From Siphonodentalium dalli (lineage: Eukaryota; Mollusca; Scaphopoda; Gadilida; Siphonodentaliidae), in assembly GCA_032622095.1 (NCBI GenBank), contig CP136062.1:152018875-152082874 (forward strand): a stretch of 64,000 bases of DNA. The letters run 5' to 3'. The position numbers and the translations under genes were made by a program. Shown one piece after another: positions 1 through 62,379 of the stretch. The notes beneath the pieces were generated by a model. The model searched no databases, was not told the DNA's origin, and was given only the letters and a program-made list of their open reading frames with translations. Numbering within the stretch: position 1 is the stretch's first letter; every line of letters begins with the position of its first letter.

Positions 1-262
1 GAATAGTGTGATGTACACCCATTGGGAACCTCAATTATGCAATGTGTCGTCTGCCAATCTGGGGATGTAGAGAAACTAAACTAAAAAGGAAATAGAATCT
101 ATGTGAAGAAGTTTCTATAGACATTTTATAATAAAGAAACTTTCCAGTGAAGATGAGGCCTATGGAATGAGGTCCATAGAGGGTGAATTTAGTGATGCTA
201 GCATGAATTCACCATCTGGGGACCTCATTCTGCAAATGACAGTCACACTAAACTCATGCTTG
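1..262 (+). mobile_element. Right terminus of a second copy of the palindromic composite element
   Basis: Bases ~150-262 match the right end of the 2128-11094 element (10963-11094): same 'GATGAGGCCTA' start, a subterminal hairpin with 'GGGGACCTCATTCTGCAAAT', and an end in '..GCTTG'. Bases 1-150 match the next inward sequence only loosely. The rest of this copy lies left of the window. A tandem array follows, as it does after the copy ending at 11094. Confidence 0.55.
185..236. repeat. Subterminal hairpin of the element end (copy 1)
   Basis: Arms read GAATGAGGTCC / GGACCTCATTC, with a second pairing block GTGAATT / AATTCAC around the loop. The same fold with a different loop lies at ~10977-11067. 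Confidence 0.55.
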
Positions 263-329
263 GTTGATTCCCATAACACCCCCAACCCCAATATATGCGC
301 ACCCATGACTGATCTGCTGGTAAGGATTT

Positions 330-2080
330 TTCACCAAGTGATGCACGTCTTGAAACCTCAACTTCCATATCACTTTACCCCAATACGTTGAATGACACGC
401 ACACATACCATTCAACCGCATGCATGCATATCTGATAAAAGTAAGGGTGATGGGTGAACTCAGCGGTGTTTGTCACAATAAATGAGTATCTGCTGTAAAT
501 GTGTGTAAAGATACACGTCTTGAAATCTCAACTTCCCTATCACATTACCACAAATATGTGTAATAACGCGCACAAATAATATTGAACCGCATAATGCATA
601 TATGGTAAAAGTAAGGGTGAACTCAACACTGTTTGTCACAATATATCAGTATCTTGTGTGTGAATGCATGTAAAGTTACACGTTTATAAATCTCAACTTC
701 CATATTACTTTACCCCAAATATATGTGCAATGTAAAAGTAAGGGTGAACTCAGCGATGTTTGTCACAAGAAATCAGTATATTTGCTGTACATGTATGTAA
801 AGTTACAAGTCTTGAAATCTCAACTTCCCTATCACTTTACCCGAAATATGTGCAATAACACGCACACATAATATTGAAATTGTGCATGCATATAAGGTAA
901 AAGTAATTGTGAACTCAGCATTGTTTGTCACAAGAAATCAGTATCTTGTGTGTGCACGCATGCAAAGTTACAGGTCTATAAATCTCAACGTCCTTATCGC
1001 TTTACCCCAATATTTGCATTTTTAAACACGCACATAATACTGAACTCTGTGCATGCATATAATTATATGGTAAAGGTATTGTTGAACTCGGCGGTGTTTG
1101 TCACAAGAGATCACCATCTTTGCTGTACATGTATACATATGTAAAGTTACACGCCTTGAAATCTCAACATCCTTATCACTTTACCCCAATATGTGCAATA
1201 ACACGAACAAATAATATTGAACCACATGTATGCATACATGGTAAAAGTAAGGGTCAACACAGCATTGTTTGTCACAATAAATCAGTATCTTGTGTGTGCA
1301 TGCATGTAAAGTTACACGTTTATAAATCTCAACTTCCCTATTACTTTACCCCAAATATTGAACTATAAGCATGCATATTTATAGGGTAAAAGTAATGGTG
1401 AACTCAGCGGTGTTTGTCACAAGAAATCAGTATATTTGCTGTATATGTATGTAAAGTTACAAGTCTTGAAATCTCAACTTCCCTATCACTTTACCCGAAA
1501 TATGTGCAATAACACGCACGCATAATATTGAAATTGTGCATGCATATAAGGTAAAAATAAGGGTGAACTCAGCATTGTTTGTCACAATAAATCAGTATAT
1601 TGTGTGTGCATGCATGCAAAGTTACACGTCTATAAATCTCAACGTCCTTATCGCTTTACCCCAATATTTGCATTTTTAAACACGCACATAATACTGAACT
1701 CTGTGCATGCATATACTTATATGGTAAAGGTATTGTTGAACTCAGCGGTGTTTGTCACAAGAGATCACCATCTTTGCTGTACATGTATACATATGTAAAG
1801 TTACACGCCTTGAAATCTCAACTTCCTTATCACTTTACCCCAATATGTGCAATAACACGCACAAATAATATTGAACAGCATGCATGCAGATAAGGTAACA
1901 ACAGTAAGCCTATTAAGGGTGAACTCAACATTGTTTGTTCCAAGAAATCAGTATCTCGGGTGTGCGTGCATCTTACACTCAGATTCATAGCCGTACACTA
2001 TTTGTATGTGGGTCTGTATTTATCTTAGACTGGTAAAGATACGCGTCCTGCTATCTCAACTTCCTTATTACCGTTATCAC
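330..2080 (+). repeat. Tandem array, ~130-178 bp units with a ~655 bp higher-order period
   Basis: Eleven units are recognisable by the core 'AAATCTCAACTTCCCTATCA' with following TTTACCCC; cores lie near 353, 522, 688, 818, 981, 1159, 1325, 1470, 1636, 1814 and 2053. Each also carries 'TTTGTCACAAGAAATCAGTA'. Spacing varies, but the sequence and spacing pattern of 818-1159 recurs at 1470-1814, giving a 652-655 bp higher-order repeat. Short open frames here are by-products of the repeat. Confidence 0.9.
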
Positions 2081-3084
2081 AATACATCCAATGTCACTCA
2101 CACACATGAAATACATAGTCGTGTGGACAAGCCTACAAACAGTATGTCTGTCATTTGCAGAATGTGTTTCACAGAAGGCGGGCTAGCATCACCAAATCCA
2201 CACTAAGGGAACCCCATTCTGCTTGTCCGGCCGCCAGGTCACGGATGCGTGTTTTAGCGTATAAAGTTTTTTTCTCTGCGGATTTTGTAAATTCAGGGAT
2301 CCGACATCAAGATTTTATCGACTGGCCATCTGTCAGCCTTGAGCAATTTTTTTATAGCGCCCTAAAAAGTATACAACCCCCCTCAATTTTTTCCCAGACG
2401 TAAAACCACAGTTACTTGGAATTTGTTGCAAATTCACATGACTAATCTGGTACAATGTATACAAATGTATATATTTTCATGAAGCTAAGACATAATGACA
2501 CTATTTTGGGCCAAAATTGAAACTCACCATCCAAGATGGCCACCAAAATGGCCGCCGGAAGTTGAAAATATGACATTTTTTCACAAATATCTTCTAGATC
2601 AGTTCATGCTGTTTGGAACTGGTTGAGTAATATGACTTTATTTTGTATATTAACTGATCATTGGAGCAATTAAATATGCAATTATTGGGGTCCTATCCGC
2701 TTGTGATACCTCAAAAATTCGATTTTACAGAACGTGGTATAAAATTTCACAAAAAATCACAACTGGGATTCTAGTCATAATTCAACAAGAAATGAACAGA
2801 AGGTTGCAATTAAGTGAGGCATACCATTACCTATGAATATTCCAACTCACTGGAACCAAAATTCTTACTTTGGCTCAAAATGGCAGCCAAAATATGGAAA
2901 ATGGTAAATATTGCCCTAGGGTGTCCTGCAATCGCTTACAAGTTGTGGTTGATGTACAGAATTGGCTATTATGCCTTCTATACATTGAATACTAACATGT
3001 CTGCTGTACCGTGGTTAATTGTTACTGTTGTCACCACTGACATCACCAAAAATATTGGACTTTTCTCTCAAAAACTTCACTTTA

Positions 3085-3275
3085 TGGACAGTCACTCCAT
3101 GCATACCGATTCACCACAAACCTGACCATGACCTCTCCCTGTATACCTATACATCTCACTATGGACAACACACTCATAACAATATAGTCACTCATTGTAT
3201 ACATATTCACATCATTCATGACATACACTAACTCCATGTATACCTATTCACCTCACCTATGATCATAGAGTAACC
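3085..3275 (+). repeat. Minisatellite, ~45-50 bp units, orientation B
   Basis: Degenerate units of the type 'CCATGACCATATAGTCACTC' followed by TGTATACCTATTCACCTCA. This short stretch is nearly the same sequence as the last ~205 bases of the window (63795-64000) and belongs to the foldback-element minisatellite at 61660-64000. Confidence 0.8.
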
Positions 3276-3575
3276 CCCTGGCTACCATCTTGGCATCCAT
3301 CCTGTATCCAGTTGATATTGGTTTATCATAATGGACCAGAAGAGCCACATATTATGGTTCATCTCAGTACCGTCTCAAAGTTCTGCCCATTTCCTTTCAA
3401 TAATATGGCCAGAATCACAAAAGAGGTTCTCCGCAAAATTCGATACTTTAAAATGAATTTGTCATGCCCCATACGGAACTGGGACAACTGTAATAGAACA
3501 TTTATTAGTTGTCAGTTAATTAACTAACACGTATAATAACCAAGTGAGTGATAATTTGCTACCTTTTCGGATAAC
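3276..3575 (-). mobile_element. Terminal arm of the foldback-like minisatellite element
   Basis: Closely matches the reverse complement of 61320-61665 (shared landmarks: ATCCTGTATCCAGTTGATA, TTCTGCCCATTTCCTTTCAA, GTTAATTAACTAAC, GATAACGCAGAGAATAAT). Here it follows minisatellite DNA, whereas at 61.3 kb it precedes it, so this is the opposite end of the same element type. Confidence 0.75.
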
Positions 3576-3600
3576 GCAGAGAATAATGTTATATATATAA

Positions 3601-3830
3601 CTAGAAGGTGACCCGACTTCGTCCGGGGTTTGACTTTGAATTGTCTATTTTGAAGGCCAAGGTCAAGTGGGGTCACGATTTGACCCGTCCAAAACACTGC
3701 CCGAACAAAAGTACCCGTCGAAATCCATCCGGTTTTACCCGATTTGACCTTTTAACCCGATTTGATTTCCACTCAAGTATATAAACGCGCCTCATATACA
3801 CACGCTCATTAATTATCAAGTTTCAACGTA
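3601..3830 (+). mobile_element. Retroelement-type head sequence (GACCCGACTTCGTCCGGGG)
   Basis: Begins ACTAGAAGGTGACCCGACTT followed by CGTCCGGGG, a start I associate with invertebrate non-LTR-type repeats. A cognate but diverged start (reverse strand) lies at 51570-51640. Family assignment is inference. Confidence 0.35.
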
Positions 3831-4319
3831 AAGATAAATTACCATCGGTGCCCGAGATATCGCCAAGACGTCTGAAACAGTCAAATGCATCGGCCGGTTA
3901 ATAGTGCAGCGGCCAAACGCCAAAAGTGGTCGGGTACCCCTACCCACGGTAGAACAAGTTAAAACCAACTTTTTTTTAAGGTGAAATATATACTGTTGAC
4001 GAAAATGATAGTGAAAAATAACGGAATTGGTGGTGGCTATTCTCAAATCGACGATGAACGATACCCACCAGTGACTTTTCCAGAAATTAACGATTTTGGT
4101 AAAGTGAGCCCTGCGGCTTAGTCCTAAGTTATTTGCCCATATTGTTGGTGTTAAAATTACTACAGCATACCATATCTGTACCTGATATGAAAAAAGTGTT
4201 GGTTAATTTAGATTTTCCTTCCATTTGGAGCCAAAACATTTATTTTTTGTTGAAAAATCGCTCTTTTTCACAAAAATAATATTTTTCAAACATTATAATT
4301 CAAACGGATATTGCAATAA

Positions 4320-4990
4320 TACTGAAATATTCAGTCCATATGGTGTAGTAGTTATCTGACAAGCATACGAAGAAAGAAGTGAACAGAAATTTTGAATGGT
4401 TTGCGATATATTGGATTTTAGCTACCCCTCCCCCAAACACGTTTTTGGTAGAAAAAATACATATTTTTGATAACGACATTACAAACATTTTCTAATTGAT
4501 CTGAATGGGACCCAATATGAATCTTGTACTGAAAGTTTTGTCCAGAGATACCGTTTAATTGATTACAGATGTGTTCAGGCTTTCAGACCTCCCAGTTACA
4601 ACAACAACAATTATTTTATTGATAACAGGTAATTTAGCATGCATTAACATCGATGTTAAGTACTAAAACCTTTGTTATAAACAACACGTGACCAACTATA
4701 TAATTCATATGGCTCAGTAGTTATCTGGACATCACAAGTAGAAAGAATTTGACAGAAATTGTGAACGGTTTTCCAGATATTGGAATTAGGTACCGCTCCC
4801 CCGGACGCGATTTGGTAGAACAAATGCATATTTATGATAACAACACAGACCTGTCTAAATGATTCTAATGGGCATCTAATCATAATTCGTGTGATGAAAA
4901 CGTGATCAGTAGACACCGCGAGCGTGGTTATAGATGTCCTCAGGTTTCCAAACCCCCAGTTACAACAACAACAAAACATTTTATTTATAA
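4320..4990 (+). repeat. ~365 bp tandem duplication inside the left arm
   Basis: 4320-4640 and 4690-4990 are diverged copies (shared: CATATGGYKYAGTAGTTATCTG, CCCAGTTACAACAACAACAA). Each ends in a short LINE-derived stretch related to 8620-8680 on the other strand. Confidence 0.65.
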
Positions 4991-5340
4991 CATGTAAATT
5001 TATATTAACACATATCGACTTTGAGGGACTAAAGTATTTATTCTAAACGACACATAATATAGACTAACATAATCATATAGAACAAAATCATTGTTGCTTC
5101 CATAGTGATTATTAGAGTCCCTCTAAATCGACCAAATTATAGAAACAATGGATATTGTATTTTATATCTCATAAACTAGTTTGACCAAGGTGGAAGCGTT
5201 AGTTCAAATATGTTCTATGTTTTGAGCCCCCACCCCCCCCCCCCCCCCTTGCCCTATTAGAAGTCACACCACGAACTGAAAGAATATGATCTCAATATTA
5301 AGAATCATGTAACTACAAGGACAGTTACATAAGGAAATAC
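4991..5340. other. Unassigned spacer with a C16 tract
   Basis: AT-rich sequence with a run of about 16 C near 5233-5248. No gene, motif or family match recognised. Confidence 0.5.
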
Positions 5341-8050
5341 ACAATGTTTATGGATGGGTTTGTTCCCGAAATAGTGTGGCACTTTACAAAACGAGGCTGC
5401 GTGGCAAATATGAAGGGCGAATTTTCAATTTTTTCGAGAACACTCTACCCGATTTAAAGACTTGAACACAATACGAAATGAAGCTATGTGCTCTCTATAT
5501 TAAATGAGAGTGTGATTGGAATGTAGTACTATCAGAGAATACATAATTTGTATGGGTGGGTTATGCCTGTGTCGCTTTACACAAAGTGGCTGGTAAATAA
5601 GAAAGACGAATTTGCTATGTTTTGATTACCCCCCCCCCCTACACCATTGGAATGTTAAAGTTGAACAAATCACGAACTGAAATGGTTGCTGTAAATATTG
5701 ACTGAGGATCTTGGCAAAGTATATTAATATCGGGACATACATAATATTGATGGATGGGTTGGTTGGTTGGTTCCCGAAATCCTTTAGAACTTTACAAAAA
5801 TCGGATGGCAAACGCCAAAGGCGATATTTTTTGTTTTGTGGGACCCCTTTATAAGCCCATTTAAACTCTTGAACACACCATGCCCCGAATATATATGCTT
5901 TTATTATTAACTCACAGTGTGAACGAAAGGTAGTGCTATCAGGGAATATACAATTTATATGGGTAGTTTGGTTCCCAAAATCCTTGGGTACTTTACAAAA
6001 GGCGGCTGGCAAATGCCAAAGCTGAATATTTTCATTGAGCACCCTACCCCATTTAAAGTCTTAAACACACCAATGGATGGATTTGTTCTCAACATTAACT
6101 GATGTGTGGACACATGGTAGGTAATTCAGGAAATATACATCTTCAGTGGGTGGGTTGGTTTCCGAATGTCTGGGACACTTTACAAAAAGTGGCTAGCAAA
6201 GAGAAAGGCGAATTCTCACTGTTCTGGGTATCCATAACCCTTCTAAACTCTTTAGCACACATTGAGCCGAATCAATATTCTCTCAATATTAACTGAGTGT
6301 GCGAAATGTGATTATTGTTTTTTGAGGTCACACGACCCCATTTGAAGTCTTGAACACACAATGAACCGAAAGGATATGCTCCCAATATTAACTGAGTGTG
6401 AAGAGAAATGGACGCTATATCAAGAGTATAGTATATCAGGTCTTGAATGTCTGGGTCACTTTACAAAAAGCTGTTGGTGAAAGAGAAAGGCGAATACTCA
6501 CTGTTTGGGGGGACCCCATTAACCCATTTAATATCTTGATCACAGCATGAACTGACGTTATATTCTCTCATACTTAGCTTAGTGTGTGATAGAAAGGTAT
6601 TGCTATCATAGAATTATTAATTGATATGGGTGATTTGGTTCCCCCGATATCCTGGAACACTTTACAAAAAGCGGCTGGTAAACACGAAAGGCGAATTTTC
6701 TATGTTTTGGGGACCCCACTATCCCACTTGAAGTCTTAAACAAATGATATGCTCTCAATGTTAACTGAAGTTGTGGGCAAATGGGAGTATTATCTGGAAA
6801 TACGAATCTGTTATGGATGAGATGGTTCTCGAAAGCGGCCGGCAAACGAAAGGGCTAAATTTCACTGTCTTAGGGGACTCCAATCCCTATTTGAAGTCTT
6901 GAACACACCACTAGCTCAAGGCATATGCTATCAATATCACCCGAGATTGTGGCCGAATGGCTGTTCTGTCAGAAAAGATGCAACGCTCTCGCGAGCCCAC
7001 CGTTCGCGAGAACACCGTGGCACCTTACACAAAGCAGATGACAAACGATGAAGGCGAATTTTAAGGGACCCCTACCCCATGTAAACCATTGAACATACCA
7101 CGAACTGAATGGATGTGCCCTCAAGGTCAAACGACGATCAAGAAATACACAATTGTTAAAGATGGGTTGGTACCCGACAGTCAGGGACACTTTACAAAAA
7201 GCGACTGGACAATAAATAATGCGATTTTTCAATGTGTGTATTAGCCCCTTCCCACTTTGAAGACTAGAACTGGAACGATATCATCATTGACTGAGTGTAT
7301 GGACAATGGGGAGTTAGTTGTACAAGGATGTATGTACACAATGTAAATAGATGGATTGGGTTCAGAAAGCATGAGCACTTAACGAAAAGTGGCTGGAAAA
7401 TAAGAAAGGCAAAATTTTGAGGACCCCTACTTTATTTGAAGTCTTGGAAGACACCACATGGTGACATGATATTACCCCAATATTAACTGAGGGCTTGACA
7501 AACGGTTAGTTTTTATCAGGATATACATATGTGTTGGTTCCCGAAAATTTGTACCATGTGGCACTCCACAACAAGTGGCTGACAAATTTTCACTGCTTTA
7601 TGTACCCCTACCCTATTTGAAGTCTTGAACACATCATGTACTGAAGGGATTATGATTTCAATATCAACATATATTATGGCCGAAACTATGCGATATATAA
7701 GGCTGTATTGGTTTCCGACAGCATGTGACACTTTACAAAAAGCGGCTGGCAAATAACAAAAATGCAATTTTAACTGTTTATGTGACACATACGCTATTTT
7801 AAATCATGAAAACACCACAAACTCGAGGGACATGGTCCCAGTTTATACGATATCCAAGGTTGTATTGGTTTCCGACAGCATGTGACACTTTACAAAAAGC
7901 GGCTGGCAAATAACAAAAATTCAACTTTAACTGTTTATGTGACTATTACGCTAGTTTAAGTCATGAAAACACCACGAACTCGATGGACATGCTCCCAGTT
8001 TTAACTGAGTCTGTGGACATAGGGTAGTTCTATCAGGAGGTAAACAATTT
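5340..8050. repeat. ~190 bp satellite-like tandem array, about 14 units
   Basis: Units are marked by 'CACTTTACAAAAAGCGGCTG' (near 5382, 5574, 5790, 5990, 6175, 6458, 6658, 6832, 7022, 7187, 7376, 7564, 7729, 7886), preceded by a 'TTGGTTCCCGAAA' block and followed by 'AAAGGCGAATTTTCACTG', 'GAAGTCTTGAACACACCA' and 'CTCAATATTAACTGAGTGTG'. Spacing is about 160-280 bp, mean ~190. Units are well diverged, so the array is old. Minus-strand open frames across it are repeats of one non-coding unit. Confidence 0.88.
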
Positions 8051-8408
8051 ATCTGGGAGAGAGAGAATGTATGGGGAAAGTTAGGACGTAATCCAGTTGG
8101 AGCTAATTGGATACAATGATATACACGTAGTTTCGTTGGAGCTGATTGGACACAATGATACACAGATAATGTTGTTTGCGTCATTGATATGTCCGTCGTC
8201 GTGAGATTACAGCTAGACGATCTGGTGGGGGTAAATTTCGCGCTCAGCAGGGTTTCTATGCTTTTCACGAAGTTTTAACAAATGACAGCGTTGTTGAAAT
8301 CGCTTTGTTTTCGAGATAAATGTTTGAACCCCGTCAATTATTTTAATATTTTCGCGATGACTGAGTTGCTGTGTTCCACACAAAAGAGTATTTCTGATAA
8401 AAATGACA
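8051..8408. other. Spacer with a short ~50 bp duplication
   Basis: Two degenerate copies of a 'TTGGAGCTAATTGGATACAA' unit at ~8096-8170; otherwise nothing recognised. Confidence 0.5.
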
Positions 8409-8680
8409 TTCAGTATGGCGCATAGAAGTTCAGTCCTAGGACCACTGTATTCAGGACATTCCTATAATTAATGATATGCTGTTTCTATTTTGCCACAACG
8501 ACAGAGAGGGGACGTTTTGATGTGATTACTCAATAGGTCATAGTTCAAACTACTGCATTTCAATCTTAAGCGAGAATGGAGTACTTGTGATATGCGACAC
8601 TTACTGTATGTAATAGCAAATAAAATTGGTTGTTGTTGTTGCAATTTGGGGTCTGGAAGCCCGAACACGTCTTTAATCAC
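8409..8680 (-). pseudogene. C-terminal fragment of a LINE reverse-transcriptase polyprotein
   Basis: Reading the minus strand from ~8680, the frame encodes a Q-rich stretch, then HSRLRLKCSSLNYDL, SPLCRCGKIETAYH, two in-frame stops, and ECPEYSGPRTELL. This order (HxRLRxxCSxLN, CxCGxxET..H, ECPxY) is the typical C-terminal zinc-binding tail of non-LTR reverse transcriptases. The RT core is absent. The two stops and the truncation mark it as dead. It lies beside the inner edge of the right arm, and its first ~60 bases recur inverted at 4562-4625 and again at 4930-4985, so a piece was captured before or during the inverted duplication. The exact LINE clade cannot be told. Confidence 0.7.
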
Positions 8681-9679
8681 TTAAGCAATGTCCCCGGGCT
8701 CAATTTTCAGCAAACAAATTATGTTGGGTCCCATTATAATCAATTGGGAAATTTGGTAAAGTTCTGAACAAAAATATGTAATTTTTCGACCAAAAACATG
8801 TTTGGGGAGGGGTAGCTAAAATCCATTATTTCGCAAATCGTTCAAATTTTCTGTTATCTTCTTTCTGCATATGCTTGGCAGATAACTGCTTCACCATAAG
8901 GATTAAATATTTCGGCATTATAGCAATATCCACGTGAATGATAATGTTAGAACAATAATATTTTTGTGAAAAAGTGCGATTTTTCAACAAAAAATAAATG
9001 TTTCGGCTCCAAATGGCAGGAAAATCTAAATTAACGAACACTTTTTTCATATCAGTTAGAGGTATGGTATGATATAGTAATTTTAACGTCAACAATATTG
9101 GCAAATAGGTTAGGACATAGCCACAGGGCTCACTTTACCAAAATCGTTAATTTCTGGAAAAAGTCACTGGTGGGTATCGCTCATCGTCGATTTGACAATA
9201 GCCACCACCAATTCCGTTATTTTCACTATCATTTTCTTCAAAAGTATATATTTCTCCTTAAAAAAAAGTTGGTTTTATCTTGTTCTACCGTGGGTAGGGG
9301 TATCTCGAAAACTAGAGCTCTTTTTCGATTTGGCCGCTGCACTATAAGCGTTAACGTGATCTAACGTTATGAACTCTAACGACGTCATAGAAGTTACGCA
9401 TTGTTTTTATCCTGATGGAAGATAGTACCACTTCTTCTTGATAATTGAGGCAGATAACTAAAACGGATACATACGCATTATATATCGTTGGAAAGAGGAA
9501 ACACGAAATATTCTCACAGTGTCATTATTATGACTGGCATTTAATTATTCGCGCTGTTTCGAATCGATTTGTAAGCACCGAACTCAAATGAAAGTCCCGT
9601 AACACAGCGTAAAAACAGATTTGACCTCGACACGTGAAAAGTTGACTGAAAATCAATATGCCTATGCCACCCCCGGCCG

Positions 9680-9800
9680 AAAATACCCCCACATACCAAG
9701 TTTCATCGAAATCGGGTCGGTCGTTTTCGAGTTCATCGCGAACACACACACAGACCACACACAGACCACACACAGACAGATCTTCCAAAATATATAATAG
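9680..9800 (+). mobile_element. Retroelement-type 3' tail followed by a CA-rich microsatellite
   Basis: 'CCAAGTTTCATCGAAATCGG' then GTCGGTCGTTTTCGAGTTCATCG and (ACACACAGACC)n. This A-rich/CA-rich tail after an 'AAATCGG..CGTTTTCGAG' block is a form I know from 3' ends of RTE-like non-LTR repeats; a cognate on the other strand lies at ~51045-51080. Clade assignment is inference. Confidence 0.4.
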
Positions 9801-10976
9801 ATGTTATAATGATATATGTAAAAAAAAAAACATATTACCAATTTGGTTGCCATTTTGGAAGCCATCTTCACCAATTTGGTCTATAAACACCGTAGTGTGA
9901 CACATTTAAGATATACCAATACAATAAACACATTTCAATCCAAAGATAGTTACATTTTACTAGAAAAAATGGTCCAAACCTGAAAAGTGAATTTTTGCCG
10001 ATATTTATGTCAAGTTTTTGAGAGAAAAGTCCAACATTTTTGGTGATGTCAGTGGTGACAACGGTAACAATTAACTATGGTACAGCAGACACATGTTAGT
10101 ATTCAATGTATAGAAGGCATAATAGCCAATTATGTACATCAACCACAACTTGTAAGTGATTGCAGGACACCCTAGGGCAATATTTACCATTTTCCATATT
10201 TTGGCAGCTATATTGAGCCAAAGTAAGAATTTTGGTGCCAGTGAGTTGGAATATTCATAGGTAATGGTATGCCTCACTTAATTGCAACCTTCTGTTCATT
10301 TCTTGTTGAAATATGACTAGAATCCCAGTTGTGATTTTTTGTGAAATGTTATACCGCGTTCTGTAAAATCGAATTTTTGAGGGATCACAAGCGGATAGGA
10401 CCCCAATAATTGCATATTTAATTGCTCAAATGATCAGTTAATATACAAAATACAAAATAAAGTCATATTACTCAACCAGTTCCAAACAGCATGAACTGAT
10501 CTAGAAAATATTTGTGAAAAAATGTCATATTTTCAACTTCCGGCGGCCATTTTGGTGGCCATCTTGGATGGTGAGTTTCAATTTTGGCCCAAAATAGTGT
10601 CATTATGTCTTAGCTTCATGAAAATATATACATTTGTATACATTTTACTAGATTAGTCATGTGAATTTGCAACAAATTCCAAGTAACTGTGGTTTTACGT
10701 CTGGGAAAACATGGGGGGGGGGGGTATACTTTTTAGGGCGCTATAAAATAAACTGCTCAAGGCTGACAGATGGCCAGTCGAGAAAATCTTGATGTCGGAT
10801 ACCTGAATTTACAAAATCCGCAGAGAAAAAAACTTTATACGCGAAAACACGCATTCGTGAATTTCGGGGGTTTGGCGACCGGACAGGGGATATAGAAACT
10901 TCCCATGCAGAAGGGAAAAAGTAAATAAAAACAATGTTAATTTGAGACTAGATACTTCCCAGAATATGAGGCCTAA

Positions 10977-11067
10977 GCATAATGAGGCCCCAGAGGGTGA
11001 TTTAGGTGATGCTAGCCCGCTATATATTGCATCACTAAATTTAACCTCTGGGGACCTCATTCTGCAA
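10977..11067. repeat. Subterminal hairpin of the element end (copy 2)
   Basis: ATGAGGCCCCAGAGGGTGAT.. pairs with ..ATTTAACCTCTGGGGACCTCAT around a loop near 11008-11025, which includes TAGCCCGCTATATATT. The equivalent position in the first copy (185-236) also folds, with a different loop. Confidence 0.6.
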
Positions 11068-11094
11068 ATGACAGACACGCTATTTGCAGGCTTG

Positions 11095-12170
11095 CCTGCG
11101 GATGTCGGAGAAGTCTCGATGAACCGGTTTGTTACGAGAAATCAGTATCTTGTGCCATTCTTGGTTGTGTAAATCGAATTGAAGAATAAGCATCGTATTA
11201 GGTATATGTATTGCAAATTGGAGATATTTTAGGTCAAATTCGGGCAAGTTGAATAGTATTTTAGGGGAGAATTGTGGCAAATAACAGTATTTTTCACATT
11301 TATGCCCGAATTATACATATTTAAGGTTAACTTGAATCTATTTTGTAATATTTATATACAAGGTATATTCTACAAACACTGTTACAACCATGAGTATATT
11401 AGGTAACAAAAAATCGGGCAAAAAGTCTCAGCCCCCCCACCCCCCCTAAGATTCGACTTCCCTTTTATCGTTACCACAATACATCCAACGCCACACACAC
11501 ACAGATAAAAATACATAGCCGTGTGGATGTCTGAGAAGTCTCGATGAACCGGTTTGTCACGAGAAATCAGTATCTTGTGGCATTCTTGGTTGTGTAAATC
11601 GAGTTATCGAGCTCTGTTGAAGAATAATTTAGCATCGTATTAGGTGTCCCGTGTCTATATATTGAAAATTTGAGATATTTTAGGTCAAATTCGGGCAATT
11701 TTCGGCCAAATTGAATGATATTTCAAGGGGGAATCATGGCAAATTACAGTTTTTATCACATTTCTGCCAGAAATATACATACGTAAGGTTAATTTGAATC
11801 TATTCTGTTATATTATGTGTATATACAAGGTATATTCTACAAACACTGTTACAATTAACCATGATTATATATATCAGGTAAAAAAAAATCGGCCCCCCCC
11901 CCCCCCTAAAAATTCGACCGCCGGCTATGGGTAAATATACGCGTCCTGCTATCTCAAATTCCTTTTACCTTTACCACAATACATCCAATGCCACACACAC
12001 AGATGAAATATATAGCCGTGTGGATGTCTGATAAGTCTCGATGAACCGGTTTGTCACGAGAAATCAGTATCTTGTGGCATTCTTGGTTGTGTAAATCGAG
12101 TTATCGAGCTCTGTTGAAGAATAAGCATCTTATTAGGTGTTACGTCCCGTGTCTATATATTGCTCCCTGA
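11095..12170 (+). repeat. Three tandem units of ~425-495 bp
   Basis: Unit starts near 11103, 11526 and 12023, each with 'AAGTCTCGATGAACCGGTTT', 'GAGAAATCAGTATCTTGTG', 'GGAGATATTTTAGGTCAAAT', then a C-rich run (11433-11450, 11895-11906). The third unit is cut short. A related block recurs at 33590-33780. The GAGAAATCAGTATCTTGTG core is shared with the 330-2080 array. Confidence 0.85.
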
Positions 12171-14244: not shown

Positions 14245-14709
14245 CTATCCGTCTGATGGCACCACTAACATTGTTAACATTTTGGCTTCGGGGGTAATAA
14301 ATATTTTATTCAAGTCGAGGAACCTACCCATTAACGCTCAGAGTGATCAGATATCGTTTTTTGAAGTTTGTTATTTCTATTGTTTACGGCCCGGAAATAC
14401 GCCGTCAAAAGGATGGTCTCGGTCAAAATTGCGGATGAAGATGGATAACTCTTAGATCAAGAGCTTAGTATTACCACTTGATTTTAGAGCTATCCATCTT
14501 CATCCGCAATTTGTCCGATTGACCACGTGTTTCTGGGCAAATTATCAGTACACATCTCGAGAAATAACAAATTTCAAAATCAGTATCTGTTCACTCTGAG
14601 CTTTGATAGGGGGGTTTCTCGACTCGAATCCAATTTTGTTACCCACCCCCCACGCCGAAGCCAAAGAAATAGTAATTTAAGAGAGTCTGATCGGATTGAA
14701 TACCTATAA
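14245..14709 (+). mobile_element. MITE-1 copy a (degenerate)
   Basis: Same internal order as the better copies (28361-28836, 44214-44690): GTCGAGGAACC, GATCAGATATCG, central hairpin, inverted arm, 'GATCGGATTGAATACCTATAA' end. Its centre retains an unusually good hairpin: AAATTGCGGATGAAGATGGA at ~14428 pairs with TCCATCTTCATCCGCAATTT at ~14491. The left terminus is eroded. Confidence 0.65.
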
Positions 14710-16377: not shown

Positions 16378-16670
16378 ACTCCAGTTTCAAAACCCGGTCG
16401 TATTATGTAAATGGTTCGTCCGTTTTCGTCCGCCCGGTTCCGCGCTATTCATTTCCCGTTACTCTAAATTAATCCTTTCTTTATTGACGAGTTGTTTCCC
16501 TTATAAAAGTTCACATACTAAGTTCAACAAATGAATATAGATCACTCTGCACGTGTGTTATATGTTCATACATCTGTAGTATGTTTATATTTCATGAACA
16601 TCCCTTCAGATTCCATTCCAACTTATACTTTCACAAAACTGATGGGATAATCCGTTTGATAACGTAAGGA

Positions 16671-17138
16671 TTAAAGATGCATAATCCGAATTAACGCTCC
16701 CAAATTACTATTTCTTTGGCTTTTGGGGTAAAATATATTTGATACGAGTCGAGGAATCCACCCATAAAACCTCAGAGTGATCAGATATCGATTTTTGAAA
16801 TTTGGTATTTATCGAGATATGTACGGTACTTATTTGTGGCCTGGAACAAAATTGTCAAGGCAACGGTCTCGGACAAAATTGCGAATGAAGATGGATAGCT
16901 CTAAAATCAAGTGGTAATACGGCCAACTTTCCTGATAATCAAATGATAATACGGCCATATTTCGTTGAAGAACATGTTGATAAATAACACGGTTTGGTAA
17001 ATTTTATACCATAGTTGACAGTGGTTAGCATTATTTTGTTGTAATTAATCGATTCTGATAACTAAAGCTAATTTAAAGAAATGTTGTTATTGTATCTTGA
17101 TGATATGGGGACCGTCTGATCGGATTGAGTACCTTTAA
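16671..17138 (+). mobile_element. MITE-1 copy b, TTAA-flanked
   Basis: TTAAAGATGCATAATCCG start and CGGATTGAGTACCTTTAA end (positions 17120-17138), with the family's internal blocks. The right part has lost some of the inverted arm. Confidence 0.75.
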
Positions 17139-19819: not shown

Positions 19820-19855
19820 ATTGTAGTGGGGTTGAGATATGGTTGCTGTTAGATA

Positions 19856-20304
19856 TTAAAGGTACTCAATCCGAATTAACGGTCGCAAATTACTATTTCC
19901 TTGACTTCGGGGGTAAAAAATATTTGATTCGAGTCGAGGAACCCACCCACCACAGCTCAGAGTGATCAGATATCGATGTTATAAATCTATTATTTTAATT
20001 ATAGTGGCCCAATAGACAGTCAACGAGAAGAATTTCATTGACCAAATTGCGGGCAAAGATGGATATTAAACTCTAAAATCAAGTGGCTTTTTGTGTCAGA
20101 TATTTGACAAACCGGTAAAATTTCGTTGAACAAAATGGTGATAAATAACAGGTTTTGTGCAATTTTATACTATAGTTGATGGTGTTTTTCATTATTTTTG
20201 GGCAATTATTAGATTCTGAAACTGAAGCGTCATTTCAAAAAATGTTGTTGTTGGAATGTGATTATATGGGGACCCTCTGATCGGATTAAGTACCGGTACC
20301 TGTA
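19856..20304 (+). mobile_element. MITE-1 copy c
   Basis: Starts TTAAAGGTACTCAATCCG; the far end is worn to GATCGGATTAAGTACCGGT. Internal blocks as in the other copies, with part of the second arm changed. Confidence 0.8.
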
Positions 20305-28360: not shown

Positions 28361-28836
28361 TTAAAGGTACTCAATCCGTAAAGAGGGTCCCCATCTCAAC
28401 ATATTCCAACAACAACAATCCGATCAGAGGGTCCTATATTACTATTTCTTTGGCTTTGGGGGTAAAAACTATTTGATTCGAGTCGAGGAACCCATCAAAC
28501 AAAGCTCAGAGTTATTAGATATTGATTTTTGAAATTTGTTATTAACTCGAGATGAGTACTAATAACTGCCGTAATCTGCTCTGGATGTGTACTCCAAATC
28601 TATTCAAACAGACAAGGATGGATAACTCTAAAATCAAGTGGTAATTTTAACGCAATTTTGACTGAGTTCTGGGCCAGATAGTATTCCCGATAATGAAAAA
28701 TATAGATTTCTAAAATCGATATCTAACAAATCTGAGCTTTGATGGGTGACTTCCTCGACTCGAATCAAATATTTTTGACCCCAGAAGCCATTGAAATAGT
28801 AATTGAGAGGAGTTTCATCGGATTGAGTACCTTTAA
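28361..28836 (+). mobile_element. MITE-1 copy d, intact, TTAA at both ends
   Basis: TTAAAGGTACTCAATCCG at the left and CGGATTGAGTACCTTTAA at the right, 476 bp. Beyond the TIR, ~200 bp arms (TTGATTCGAGTCGAGGAACC against GACTTCCTCGACTCGAATCAA) make the whole element a hairpin around the central 'TCTAAAATCAAGTGGTAATT'. No transposase. TTAA targets suggest mobilisation by a piggyBac-like enzyme (inference). Confidence 0.9.
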
Positions 28837-33444: not shown

Positions 33445-33877
33445 CATACTATGAATGGTGTATTATTTATTTAGAGGGATGTTCAGGTAATAAAAGCACA
33501 TGGCAGACAATACAAAACAGATAATACATGCAAGAGCAGAATTATCGCCATACGGACCAGGGGCTGTGATGGCTTCACCCCATACTATTCGGTCAATTGT
33601 CGGCAAATTGGAGATATTTTCGGTCAAAGTCAGAATTTTTCGGGCAAATTGAATGGTATTTCAGGGAGAATTTATGGTAAATTACAGTATTTTTCACATT
33701 TATGCCAGAACTATACATATTTAAGAATAACTTGAATATTTTTTGTTACCCCCCCCCCCCCCTAAAAACTCGGGCGCCCGTTCGGCTATGAGCAGAATGG
33801 TCGTTTGTAGAACTTATCATCTAACCATTTACTACGAGATCTACTCATCAATGAGTATTTATTATAGAAAGCGTTAA
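33445..33877 (+). mobile_element. MITE-2 copy v, interrupted by another repeat
   Basis: Left part to ~33542 and right part from ~33790 (ending TATTATAGAAAGCGTTAA) belong to MITE-2. Between them, 33543-33789 is foreign and contains the 11.1-12.2 kb unit type. GAGCAGAAT occurs on both sides of the insert. Confidence 0.75.
33543..33789 (+). repeat. Fragment of the 11.1-12.2 kb repeat unit nested in MITE-2
   Basis: 'CAAATTGGAGATATTTTCGG', 'TGAATGGTATTTCAGG', 'TTTTTCACATTTATGCCAGA', C14 then TAAAAACTCG follow the order at 11218-11455 and 11680-11930. Confidence 0.85.
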
Positions 33878-44213: not shown

Positions 44214-44690
44214 TTAAAGGTACTCAACCCGTAAAGAGGGTCCCCATCTCAACAGATTCCAACAACAACAATCCGATCGGAGGGTCCTATATTACTATTT
44301 CTTTGGCTTTGGGTGTAAAAAATATTTGATTCGAGTCGAGGAACCCATCAAACAAAGCTCAGAGTTATTAGATATTGATTTTTGAAATTTGTTATAAACT
44401 CGAGATCCGTACTACTAACTGCCGTAATCTGCTCTGGATGTGTTCTCCAAATCTATTCAAACAGACAAGGATGGATAACTCTAAAATCAAGTGGTAATTT
44501 TAACGCAATTTTGACTGAGTTCTGGGCCAGATAGTATTCCCGATAATGAAAAATAATAGATTTCTAAAATCGATATCTAACAAATCTGAGCTTTGATGGG
44601 TGACTTCCTCGACTCGAATCAAATATTTTTGACCCCCGAAGCCATTGAAATAGTAATTGAGAGGTGTTTTATCGGGTTGAGTACCTTTAA
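44214..44690 (+). mobile_element. MITE-1 copy e, intact, TTAA at both ends
   Basis: TTAAAGGTACTCAACCCG..CGGGTTGAGTACCTTTAA, 477 bp, very close to copy d throughout, which suggests a recent burst. Confidence 0.9.
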
Positions 44691-48739: not shown

Positions 48740-49800
48740 CTTATTGTGAAGCTAAGACATAATGCTAACTTTTAGGGCAAACTTGGAACTCCAAGTCCAA
48801 GAATAACCATTTTTTACTTATATCTTCTAAATTAGATTCTGCTGTTTGGAACTGGTTGAGAATTGCGACTTTATTTTGTATTTTTCATATTAACTGATCA
48901 TTGGAGCAATGCAATATGCCATTCTGTGGTCCCAAGCCCATCCAAAAATGTTATTCTACAAAATGCGGTATAAATTTCACCAAAAAAATCATCATTTAGC
49001 TCAAAATGACCGCCAAAATGGCAGCCAAATTATGGAAAATCGTACATATTGCCCCATCGTGCCCTGCAATAGGTTACAAGTTATTGTTTAACTGTTACTA
49101 TTGTAACCATTGACATTTTTCTCTCACAAACTTGACATAAAAATCAGCAAAAATTAACTTTTCAGTTTGGATCTTTATTTTCAAGTTAAATGGAACTCTC
49201 ATTGGTAGCAAAGGTGTTTTTTGTTTTGATCTGTCTTAAATGAGTCACACTGATGTGTTTTTGGACCAAATTACTTAAAATTGCTTGCAAAATAGCAACC
49301 AAATTATTATTATGCGATTATAATTGGGGGCGTTTTCATTGTCTGTATGGTCAATGTAACTAATATACTAGAAAGTTAAATTTCTAAAGCGAAAAACAAT
49401 GGGTTCAGCTTAGCTTGGGTCCGATGTACATGTAAGAAGTTTTGAATACGCGCATCAGGTAGTGAGTATGGTCATGGGTGGGATATACAGGTGTACCTTG
49501 ATATGGCTGTATAGTCATGGTTGGGTGTATATGTATACACGTATTGGCTGTATGTGTGTATGGATAAATAGCGAGTGATTGTATGGTTATGGGTAATGTG
49601 TATATGGAATGACTAACGGTAATGGTTGAATTGTATTTTCATACCTGGAGTATTATAGCTTGATGTTCATTTGCGGGCGTGTGGATATATACAGGGAGTG
49701 CCCTTGCGACCATGCTTGTGAGGGTTATGTATAACTGTATTGTCATCGCTTGGTGTATATGTATACAAGAGCATCTGTGTGACCATGAATGGGGTGTATA
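48740..49800 (+). mobile_element. Copy of the foldback-family arm plus minisatellite, in intron
   Basis: 48740-49330 follows the order of 60540-61310 (CTGTTTGGAACTGGTTGAG, TTAACTGATCATTGGAGCAA, CCGCCAAAATGGCAGCCAAA, ACAAACTTGACATAAAAATC). 49470-49800 is the minisatellite in orientation A (GTATGGTCATGGGTGGGATA..). Confidence 0.75.
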
Positions 49801-50220
49801 AATGAGTCACAATGTGCTACTCTTCTCGGGACAGTAGAGAATAATGTTCGTGATAAGACGACGAGTGTGTTATCAATTGATACGGACGACCTATCGCCCA
49901 AAAAACGCGACACGAGGATACATCGAATGATTTTTTCTTGTGTATATCACCTAGATAAATACACGTCATCTGTATAATACACAAGCTTCGTACATCTCGC
50001 TGTACATCTCTGCTCACCAAGGCAGTGACATGTAATCGATGTGAAGATACAAACCATTAGTTCTTCCATTGTCCATGCATATCGACTCCATGCACGCATA
50101 TGGCCACGATTCGACGACCTGAACACTGTGATTTCGTGGTTTTAGGCATACCACACTACAGCACAATCATTCATCGCCTCCAGAGACAGTTTCTCACAAT
50201 TCGCATAATAATTTTACTTT

Positions 50221-57297: not shown

Positions 57298-57762
57298 TTA
57301 AAGGTACTCAATCCGATAAAACTCCTCTCAATTACTATTTCAATGGCTTCGGGGGTCAAAAATATTTGATTCGAGTCGAGGAAGTCACCCATCAAAGCTC
57401 AGATTTGTTAGATATCGATTTTAGAAATCTATTATTTTTCATTATCGGGAATACTATCTGGCCCAGAACTCAGTCAAAATTGCGTTAAAATTACCACTTG
57501 ATTTTAGAGTTATTCATCCTTGTCTGTTTGAATAGATTTGGAGTACACATCCAGAGCAGATTATGGCAGTTATTAGTACTCATCTCGAGAACATAACAAA
57601 TTTGAAAAATCAATATCTAATTGTTTGATGGGTTCCTCGACTCGAATCAAATATATTTTACCCCCAAAGCCAAAGAAATAGTAATATAGGACCCTCTGAT
57701 CGGATTGTTGTTGTTGGAATCTGTTGAGATGGGGACCCTCTTTACGGGTTGAGTACCTTTAA
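57298..57762 (-). mobile_element. MITE-1 copy f, inverted, TTAA at both ends
   Basis: TTAAAGGTACTCAATCCGAT at the left and CGGGTTGAGTACCTTTAA at the right. Internal order is the reverse complement of copies d and e. 465 bp, well preserved. Confidence 0.9.
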
Positions 57763-58135: not shown

Positions 58136-60235
58136 TTATATGTGCTTGTCTGCTTCTGTTTTTAAGGTGTTTACTCTGTGCACATGAATTGAGTATAAGA
58201 AATTTCTTGCCAGTTTTTCAATTTGTTCTTTTTCTATATCGGTAAGGTTCCAGGATTCTAGTTTTGTGCAGTCTATGGTTAACTGAGTTAAGAGTTCTGG
58301 TTGATCAATAGTGTATTTGTCAGTGGTAGTTTTTGAGAGACATAGTTTGAGTGTTTGTATGTAACAATGTCGTTGGTTGTTAGTGTTCGTACATTGTGAA
58401 ACGAAAGTATTCTGTCCTCATCAGCTAGTTTGCAGAGTGGACACATGGCAGAGGTAAGGTTTTGTCTGAATCTTTTTCTATTTATTTGTAGTAAATAAGT
58501 GTCTGTCATCAACCATGTTTTTATAATAGCCTTTTTTGTGGCAGCGGGCGAGTATTTTGATGAATCCCATACAAAATGACATTTGCTGCTTGAGTTTTCT
58601 TGTAATTTGATCATTGTTAATGTTGTTTTACTGGAGAACTCTTTGTCATTAATATCATGCCAATATTGGTATATAGCTTTTTTACATATTGTTTTCCATT
58701 TGTTGGCATCTTCCTTACTGTGGATGGTGCTTATGATATGCAGTGGGTCAGGAAGGGTATATTTGGAAAGTATGTCTCTGACATGTACAAACCAGCTATA
58801 GGTCTATAGCGCCTTGGATGGGAATAGCACCAATAAGTGCATTTGTAGCAGCATTTGCTGTGCGTGTTGATAAACTCTGCAATTGTCTCATGTTTTTCGT
58901 TGGAAACGTTCGAGTTCATCTATGTCTTTTTTTTCATATGTAGGATTTCTATACCATGCATCATTCTAGGAATGACAAAAGTGTTCCACATTTGGTATGC
59001 TATTACTGGTGATATGCCGTTTGTTCCATGTAGCCCTGTACCCATCAAGGAGTATAGGGTTCGTCTGCCCATTACTATTCGTTTTGGGATATCTGGGGTA
59101 TTCGTTGGATTACGCTCTACACCTAGGTGTTTGGTGAAGCCTACAATATTAACAGGTGTTCCACCTAGGACAGTTTTTATTTCACCATTCATTTTTTGTG
59201 TAGATGTTTTCATTTGGACAATTTCGCATTTAGTTGCGTTCATTGCGAATCGATCTTTACATGAGTTGTTGTATACAATACTTGTGAGAGTTTGTAAATC
59301 AGCTGTTGTTTTTGCTAAGATGGCTACATCATCTGCACAGGTGGGGGCTGTTATATCAATTGTGCCAATTTTAAACCCAGCTGCATTGTTACTTAGCTGA
59401 TTTAGCATGTCGTTGTTAAATCTTTTATAGAGCATTGCTGATAATTAACCCCTTGTCTTATTCCTTGGTGAAGTAGTATATCTGAGGAGTATGATTCACC
59501 CCAGTTTACCTTTGTATTCGCCTCATGATGTTATGAATTTACAAGTAGCCATAGGTAGCTGTGGATCCCATCAATGAAAAGTTTTCTCAGTAGGCTTTTA
59601 TGCCACACAACGTCAAATGCTTTTTCAGCATCCAGGGTTTCTAATATTAATTTCTCATTTATGTCTTTGCTTTCATTGAATGCTTCAGTTATCATAAGCC
59701 CAGCAACTAGGGGTGATGTGCCTTGAGTGAAGCCACGTTGCATTTTATTTTGCGATGGTAATAGTATGTTGTCTAATTTGTCTTGCAGGGTTGCTTCTAG
59801 GATTTTACATATTATGGAGCTGATAGTTATGCCCCTGTAATTCCCTGGTTTTGTTGGGTCTTTGTCCTTTTTTGGTACAGGTGTTAATATGCCGATTTTT
59901 ATTTCTTTTGGCACTTCTCGTTTTTCATATATAGTGTTTATGATGTTCATGATTATTGGGGCAGTTTCTTCTATGCTATATTTGAGGTGTTCAGCCGTAA
60001 TTCCAGCATAGTCAGCTGCTTTATTTAGTTTGAGCTTATTGACAATTGTTTTAATTTCATGCAGTGTGACTGGTTCTAAAAATGGTTTATTAGCATGACA
60101 TATTTGTTCAATAGCTTCAATATCTATCAGCCGAGACTTGTTTGTGGAATGTATCATCAAATCTATCAGCAGTGTTTGGTTCTGACAGTTTTTAAAAGTG
60201 TTTAAACCACCCATCCATCATCTGCTCGGCACCAT
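58136..60235 (-). pseudogene. 5'-truncated, frameshifted LINE reverse transcriptase
   Basis: Minus-strand pieces in order. 60235-59531: GILTPVPKKDKDPTKPGNYR (RT fingers), MQRGFTQGTSP, and palm motif A in LETLDAEKAFDVVWH. ~59530-59420: motif B GIRQG followed, after a one-base shift, by LSAMLYKRFNNDML. 59435-58920: motif C as CADD (usual YADD) at ~59328-59339. After further shifts: LERFQRKT, RTANAATNALIGAIPIQGA, then KTWLMTDTYLLQINRKRFRQ with CPLCKLADEDRI, and a stop at 58136. The endonuclease domain is absent, and several frameshifts make it dead. It is a non-LTR element; a CR1/L2-like affiliation is possible but not certain. It ends against the foldback-family element at ~60240. Confidence 0.9.
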
Positions 60236-60239
60236 ATTG

Positions 60240-61315
60240 GTGTCCATCTATTTAGTGGGGGGCATAATTACAGGAAAACATAAAAATCGTTCACTTTGTG
60301 ATAGAAGCGCCAAACTTTCAGAATTTGTTAAGTGGTAGGTGAGTATCACTAAACTGGCTGGTTCCAGATTTTGGAGGTCACCTTGGCCTTCAATTTGACC
60401 TTGACCTTTTTGAAAATCTCAGTTTTAGGGTTGGGTGGTTTATGCCATCCTTTTCTTGTGAAAATCGCATCTTCTCACAGTTTTCTCAATACAATTATAG
60501 TTGGGAGGTGACAACGGTTCATTTGGGCCAAAACATATCTAAATTTTCATAAGATGGCCGCCAATATGGTCGCTGGAAGTTGAAAATATGACATTTTTTC
60601 ACAAATATCTTCTAGTTCAATTCATGCTGTTTGGAAATGGTTGAGTAATGCAACTTTATTTTGTGTTTTGTATATTAACTGATCATTGGAGCAATTAAAT
60701 ATGCAATTATTGGGGTCCTAACCCCTTCCAATCCCTCAAAACTTCGATTTTACAGAACGCGGTACAAAATTTTACAAAAAAATCACAATTGGGATTCTAG
60801 TCACATTTCAACTAGAAATGAAAAGAACATTGTAATGCAAGTGAGGCATATCATTACCTATGAATATTCCAACTCTCTGGAACCAAAAATCTTACCTTGG
60901 CTCAAAATGGCTGCCAAAATGGCCGCCAAAATATGGAAAATTGTAAATATTGCACCAGGGTGTCATGCAATTGCTTACAAGTTGTGGTTGATGTATAAAA
61001 TTGGCTAATCTGTATTCTATACATTGAATACTAACATGAATACTAACATGTCTGATACACCATGTTTCATTGTTACTATTGTCACCTCTGACATCACCAG
61101 ATATATTGGATTTTTCTCTCACAAACTTGACATAAATATCGGCAAAAAATCACTTTTCAGGGTTCGACCATTTTTTCAAATAAAATGCAACTACCTTTGG
61201 TATCAAATGTGTTTATTGTTTTGACCTATCTTAACTGTGTCACACTATGGTGTTTATAGACTAAATTGATCAAGATGGCTTCCAAAATGGCAACCAAATT
61301 TGTAAAAAGTAATTT
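60240..61315 (+). mobile_element. Outer arm (L) of the foldback-family element
   Basis: 60540-61310 matches 2520-3080, the reverse complement of 9800-10640, and 48740-49330. Landmarks: ATGGCCGCCAATATGGTCGC, TGTTTGGAAATGGTTGAGTA, TTAACTGATCATTGGAGCAA, AATATGGAAAATTGTAAATA, GGCTTCCAAAATGGCAACCA. 60240-60540 has no partner in the window. Non-coding. Confidence 0.8.
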
Positions 61316-61319
61316 TTTT

Positions 61320-61665
61320 TACACATATCCAGAAAATTATTCTCTGCGTTATCCCAAAAGGTAGCAAATTGTGACTGACTCGGTTATTATACCTGTTAGT
61401 TAATTAACTGACAACTATGTTCTATTATGTTTATCCTAGTTACGTATGGGGCATGACAAATTCATTTTAAAGTTGCGGTATGGAATTTTGCGGATAACCT
61501 CTTTTGTGATTATGGCCATATTATTGAAAGGAAATGGGCAGAACTTTGAGACGGAACTGAGATGAACCATGAGATGTGGGTAGTCTGGCCCATTATGATA
61601 AAAAATTATCAACTGGATACAGGATGGAAGCCAAGATGACAGACAGGGAGTTACTTTATGATCGT
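61320..61665 (+). mobile_element. Inner arm (L2) of the foldback-family element
   Basis: Reverse complement of 3276-3575 (CAGAAAATTATTCTCTGCGT, TTAGTTAATTAACTGACAAC, GGAAATGGGCAGAACTTTGA, ATCAACTGGATACAGGATGG). It leads into minisatellite orientation A. Confidence 0.8.
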
Positions 61666-62340
61666 AGATGAGGATAATATGTATACCGCGAGTTATTGTA
61701 TGGTTATGGATGATGTGTGGGTATATGGGGAGTGCCTGTTGGCAACGATGGGTTGTATATTTATATATGTTGTGGATGTGTTATCATTGATGGTGTATGG
61801 GGAGTAGATGCATGACCATGAGTATGGCAAGTGTGGAACTTATGAGAGGTCATATGTGCGGGCATTGGTTTATCTGGAAGGGCTCACCATTTGTGATGTG
61901 CATATGTATACCTGGATTGACTCTATGGTAATGGATATGGCGAATAGGTATACATCTAGTTGGCTGTATAGTCCATGGTGAGGTGAATAGGTATACAACG
62001 CGTGACCGTATGATCGTGAATGTAGTGAATATGTATACATAGAGTGACTATATGGCCATGTGTCGGGTGTATGTGTATACCTGGTGTTTATACATGGTGA
62101 CTCGTGGCTGTATCGTCATTTGTGGTATGTACGGGTATAACCAAGTATGGCTGTATGATCAGGTGTACGTATATAAAGTGACTATGTTGTCATTTGTGTT
62201 GTGTTTATGTACATATGGAGTGACTGAGGTAATGGGTGGGTTGTACATGTGTACCTTGGGTGGCACAATAACTCAAGGATATGTTAATCAATGGAGAGGT
62301 CATGTCAGAGAGTTCTCTATCTTGATGGTGTTTATTTACA
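61666..62340 (+). repeat. Foldback minisatellite, orientation A
   Basis: Degenerate ~45-60 bp units such as GTATACATAGAGTGACTATA then TGGCCATGTGTCGGGTGTAT. All apparent frames are repeat by-products. Confidence 0.9.
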
Positions 62341-62379
62341 TGGGGGCGTTAAACACGGAAAACGATGGCCACCTATTAC

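Follow-up and report, generated by a model that had tools for sequence, protein, structure and literature searches.

The window examined here, 64,000 nt of the Siphonodentalium dalli genome (GCA_032622095.1, CP136062.1:152,018,875-152,082,874, forward strand), carries at 2128-11094 a palindrome-like composite of 9 kb that an earlier interpretation made from the letters alone (the sequence-only reading) took for a single element. The block is a real feature and ordinary in kind, a nest and not a new class, and with high confidence we read it as four non-autonomous mobile repeats lying one inside the other in a satellite-like array, with a small palindromic element (Z) in an array unit, a palindromic element with long terminal inverted repeats (TIRs) (X) in Z, a further repeat (R) in X and a second long-TIR element (Y) in R. 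The nesting order and the boundaries are visible in comparisons with other sites, unfilled sites having been seen for every layer (array for Z, Z for X, X for R and R for Y), and by sequence similarity every piece has independent relatives at other genomic sites. A structure that looked unnameable is in this way turned into an ordered series of insertions, the unfilled sites of which are still visible. The features of the composite and its flanks are as follows, the segments of the X arms being lettered and their inverted counterparts primed.

263 to 2127, plus strand: tandem array, ~165-bp units with a 654-bp higher-order period (repeat-period analysis)
2120 to 2127, no strand: left copy of the Z target duplication, CGTGTGGA (8 bp)
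2128 to 2224, plus strand: left piece of Z, split by X (alignment to other Z copies)
2225 to 10884, plus strand: X, palindromic element with long TIRs (GTCCGG...CCGGAC), bearing an internal deletion and the insertions R and Y (end comparison across genome copies)
2239 to 3080, plus strand: X arm segment A (self-comparison, genome copies)
3088 to 3272, plus strand: remains of the X satellite core (~42-bp satellite; repeat analysis, genome copies)
3273 to 3598, plus strand: X segment C (genome copies)
3601 to 3901, plus strand: left piece of R, start CTAGAAGGTGACCCG (comparison with other X copies)
3899 to 3901, no strand: left TAA flank of Y (sequence)
3902 to 9344, plus strand: Y, element with long TIRs (TAGTGCAGCGGCC...GGCCGCTGCACTA) lying within R (genome end matches, unfilled R)
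3902 to 4620, plus strand: left arm of Y (self-comparison, genome matches)
5215 to 8040, plus strand: degenerate satellite core of Y, a tandem array (self-comparison, repeat analysis)
8619 to 9344, minus strand: right arm of Y (self-comparison, genome matches)
9345 to 9347, no strand: right TAA flank of Y (sequence)
9345 to 9800, plus strand: right piece of R (comparison with other X copies)
9811 to 10008, minus strand: X segment B' (genome copies)
10009 to 10860, minus strand: X arm segment A' (self-comparison, genome copies)
10885 to 11094, minus strand: right piece of Z with a subterminal hairpin (alignment to Z copies, fold test)
11095 to 11102, no strand: right copy of the Z target duplication, CCTGCGGA (8 bp, 6/8 alike)
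11103 to 12160, plus strand: continuation of the tandem array, 425-500-bp units (self-comparison and repeat period)

Comparison of the window with itself (threshold E 1e-6) bore out the claims that the same inverted terminus stands at both outer ends, 2128-2175 pairing with 11094-11047 (48 bp, 83%, E 2e-7), and that the flanking arrays share one orientation, with 2032-2127 matching 11930-12024 in the same direction at 90%. The inverted similarity said to reach ~2.4 kb inward is indeed colinear over that span on each side, in blocks 2239-3080/10860-10009 (852 columns, 95.4%) and 3901-4620/9345-8619 (731 columns, 85.1%), but it is gapped and not one continuous palindrome, neither 3081-3600 (left) nor 9346-10008 (right) having a partner in the opposite arm at this threshold. 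It is made up of three separate repeat families, the outer 97 and 210 bp, the arms 2225-3080/10009-10884 and the arms 3902-4620/8619-9344, each of which has its own ends at other genomic sites. The window contains three occurrences of a 19-base subterminal motif, against 0.04 expected. The absence of a transposase was also upheld, in that eleven stop-to-stop frames of at least 100 amino acids overlap the composite and none of the ten searched matched Pfam at E 0.1.

When the genome to which the window belongs (2.23 Gb, 9 contigs) was searched, at most 40 places were scored per query, from 2221 seeds for X, 5887 for Z and 3032 and 2952 for the two Y ends, these being search seeds and not copy counts. 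The searches showed four nested insertions where the sequence-only reading had one element, and in particular the arms proved not to be parts of a whole that ends in CAAGCCT. With 2128-2600 as query, two of the 40 long rows scored were the window's own arms, while 37 of the other 38 (a few of them the two arms of one element) began at query positions 90-112, that is at 2217-2239, and one at position 55. The CAAGCCT ends, taken earlier for the composite's own termini, belong to a separate family of ~430 bp; arms with separate ends of their own, which that reading had itself named as telling against it, are what the genome holds.

This family is Z, a small palindromic element with CAAGCCT ends, of which six complete genomic copies measure 414-462 bp (those in stretches L019 and L030 are incomplete or rearranged). 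Its position in an array unit is seen from the outer flanks of the window copy: put together, they reproduce the array units at 11522 and 12019, both unfilled, with 8 bases in excess. When flank matches in true copies were compared with those in mispaired copies (nine copies each for Z and X), the 8-bp flanks of Z matched at a mean of 5.78/8, two of nine perfectly, against 2.26/8 in mispaired copies, with no signal at lengths of 6, 7, 9 or 10 in the same nine copies. The single strand of 10861-11094 folds better than 200/200 shuffles (z -5.1). Z is clustered in one region, L025 with L029 (C1:72646700-72662000), where 10 kb contain five copies, one with an X inside. A related end at 1-262 had been read as that of a second composite; the related end is real and belongs to a lone Z:

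1 to 262, minus strand: 3' part of an entire Z (432 bp) whose start lies 169 bp to the left of the window (CAAGCCTGAG...CTCATGCTTG, flanks GTTAACTC/GTTGATTC, 6/8)

The suggested alternation of element and array units along the chromosome was not supported, this neighbour being a lone Z and the array finding no match, in the window self-comparison, around the two other X relatives at 48-50 and 60-64 kb. Within the right-hand array units a dispersed segment of ~145 bp is found (11213-11346 and 11666-11810, and also at 33603-33746), which may be part of why these units exceed the 165-bp units on the left.

The two ends of X, GTCCGGCCGCCAGGTCACGG and GTCCGGTCGCCAAACCCCCGAAATTCACG, place it at 2225-10884. 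The window holds two further relatives:

60522 to 64000, plus strand: X relative truncated at the window end, in the order A-B-C'-satellite(-)/satellite(+), with arms ~84-86% similar to those of the window X
48746 to 49848, plus strand: relic of an X relative, A-B fragments and satellite (window self-comparison)

At 60.5-64 kb the composite's 3208-3598 and 9811-10565, from its left and right sides, are contiguous, and this order predicts a palindrome A-B-C'-satellite(-)/satellite(+)-C-B'-A' of which the composite would be a deleted and interrupted copy. The prediction was upheld in 19 genomic stretches (from 20 fetched regions, two joined), 12 of which show both X sides and seven one side only, with the full order in seven of the 12 (L027 with a partial last A') and the other five deleted or rearranged (L009, L010, L011_12, L019, L025). 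An intact X is a palindrome of 4-5 kb, with A-B-C arms of ~1.4 kb on each side and a ~42-bp satellite in minus and then plus orientation. The two Z pieces of the window, joined, align gaplessly across the X junction with an X-free Z (L051), and the same gapless junction is found in L050, whose other half is replaced; the window X, at its target CTT/AGG, therefore has no target duplication. In the family at large, 3 bp after TAGTCC were perfectly duplicated in 3/9 copies against 4/72 mispaired, a better fit than any other end position and length tried, and the flank beside L022 is by eye similar to this pattern. No perfect match of 7-10 bp was found in nine copies at four end positions, the largest excess being 3.44/9 against 2.08 mispaired (GTCC end). 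A tree of the X arms has almost the shape of a star, with good support for 6 of its 29 inner branches; the right-type arms of L022, L026 and L028 group (100/99), and the left- and right-type arms of L021 (301-5183) fall in the opposite groups, as if its ends had been exchanged by recombination. L028 (279-398, 566 onward) also carries an X end and its flank duplicated inverted, ~170 bp from an intact X. Directly adjoining the X relative at 60522 is a degraded reverse-transcriptase element (58288-60217, minus strand) with broken frames (RVT_1, E 6.6e-11; second frame 1.2e-5, below the Pfam cut-off).

In L013, L014, L026 and L028 segments C and B' adjoin at a TA-rich spot, whereas the composite has them 6.2 kb apart. 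This spot, at 3600 in the window, is filled by R in the window, by R again in L011_12 (same orientation) and L022 (opposite orientation), and by an unrelated repeat in L027; it seems to be a hot spot for insertions within a mobile element. R, earlier described as a scrap of a long interspersed nuclear element (LINE), has a 3' tail that resembles those of non-long-terminal-repeat elements; the composite frames tested gave no recognised coding domain for it, R not having been searched as a family of its own. The motif ATGTTATA was considered as its target duplication and rejected, as unfilled X copies already carry both occurrences.

The innermost layer, Y, has sharply shared ends, 19 of 39 listed left-end matches elsewhere starting exactly at 3902 and 21 of 39 listed right-end matches stopping exactly at 9344. 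At least 24 left/right pairs, including the window and 23 other loci, lie 5.27-6.73 kb apart, many at 6.0 kb. The R of L011_12, which has no Y, aligns gaplessly with the joined R pieces when a single TAA is retained; retaining both opens a gap of 3 bases. At the Y site it has one stretch of TAA length, TGA.

Successive insertion of non-autonomous elements is the best-supported mechanism for this arrangement. Z would have entered an array unit with an 8-bp duplication, X would then have entered Z, R the TA-rich spot of X, and Y, with TAA on both sides, would have come last, into R. Since they have TIRs and no coding sequence was detected in them, we infer that Z, X and Y were moved by transposases supplied in trans. 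Several observations weigh against this history. The window Z has a target duplication of 6/8 only and flanks match poorly in two of the nine Z copies (L026 2/8, L051 4/8); the window X differs from the 3/9 copies fitting TAGTCC plus 3 bp in having no duplication; any duplication made by R is obscured by the ATGTTATA motifs that pre-exist in unfilled X copies; the middle of R aligns poorly to L011_12; and a different chromosome has a second X that lies in a Z at almost the same position, this being the row that begins at query position 55.

This last case leaves room for Z and X having moved together through the ends of Z, as a smaller composite, before R and Y arrived. The exact junction pattern occurs at two genomic places, the window and C1:72656553, X having the same orientation within Z at both, while the surroundings differ and the outer 8-bp matches are 6/8 and 5/8. 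We nevertheless consider such joint movement unlikely and favour two independent insertions, because the bases at the junctions (marked by slashes) differ, CTT/GTCC..GGAC/AGGGG as opposed to CTC/TAGTCC..GGACTA/CACTTG, and because the arm tree, mostly unresolved as it is, does not pair the two. The left arm of the window X is also no closer to the C1 copy (96.8%) than to L014 or L009 (96.8%). A looser fixed-length junction search gave 16 places with no obvious Z-X junction by letters, but carries little weight, as it missed both known composites too.

That the whole 9 kb is one foldback-type element with CAAGCCT termini, moving as a unit, would account for the inverted similarity from both outer ends and for the outermost position of the 8-bp duplication. 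It is very improbable given that copies of X, Y and Z at other loci each have distinct ends, that each inner layer has an unfilled site, and that no second copy of the whole block was among the matches listed. Stacked non-autonomous inverted-repeat elements can evidently mimic one large foldback element. Inverted duplications can also form by palindromic duplication or replication template switching, and the inverted X end beside its flank in L028 might be taken as such an event, but a local origin of the arms in place of transposition is scarcely credible when the same palindrome with the same ends is found on different chromosomes and the arms, L021 excepted, mostly group by end type across copies, as for a unit copied whole.

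The likeness to foldback and core-satellite elements proposed for the 9 kb whole does not hold for it, though it does for X and Y separately, both having long inverted arms, a tandem-repeat core and no coding sequence in the tested frames. Among foldback-type elements, Tetris of Drosophila virilis has TIRs of up to 1,735 bp and duplications of 8-10 bp (PMC4079207), and Galileo TIRs of 18-1,250 bp and duplications of 7 bp (PMC3573991). Features in common are long TIRs, internal tandem repeats, a variable middle, a non-coding nature and many rearranged copies; the duplications differ, X having 3 bp or none where 7-10 bp would be expected and Y having TAA; Z has the 8-bp duplication and is only ~430 bp long. 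X is accordingly foldback-like in form, through palindromic arms and satellites, its TIRs being long relative to the element with tandem repeats within or between them, and fails the 7-10 bp duplication of the named elements. In duplication length alone, Z resembles hAT or another superfamily with 8-bp duplications.

Cg_HINE, a Helentron-type core-satellite element of the oyster, normally has subterminal inverted repeats of 11-12 bp, prefers TT and makes no duplication (PMC7492417). The dispersed elements with satellite-like central arrays and the lack of a duplication at the window X resemble it, whereas X and Y have arms of ~0.7-1.4 kb, the satellite of X runs both ways, and Y is flanked by TAA at either end in place of a TT target with no duplication, an observation from one copy.

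PIF/Harbinger elements make 3-bp TWA target duplications, which agrees with the TAA/TAA of Y at 3899-3901 and 9345-9347, in one copy only. Their TIRs usually begin with A or G (PMC4482050), and Y begins TAGTGC if TAA is the duplication. Spy inserts with no duplication and prefers AAATTT (PMC4482050, PMC11304231; Spy and other PHIS elements); the window X is like it in having no duplication and unlike it in its CTT/AGG target, and 3/9 X copies fit a 3-bp duplication. Membership of X or Y in Spy or PHIS cannot be claimed, a transposase having been neither found nor sought.

The X family merits a proper description, and its mirror-image satellite core may be a means by which satellite repeats spread through a genome. 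We suggest tentatively, as a possibility that is some way from probable, that X is an undescribed and abundant palindromic DNA family (arm-inverted satellite/satellite-arm) that is moved by some transposase and makes a 3-bp duplication or none, and whose TA-rich C/B' junction would be a landing pad where nests grow genome-wide.

Elsewhere in the window a ~480-bp repeat ending AGGTACTCAAYCCG is present at 28361-28836, 44214-44690 and 57298-57762 (94-97% identical), with more distant relatives at 14281-14709, 16670-17133 and 19828-20294. Each of the three close copies is flanked by TTAA, and we take the repeat to be piggyBac-like.
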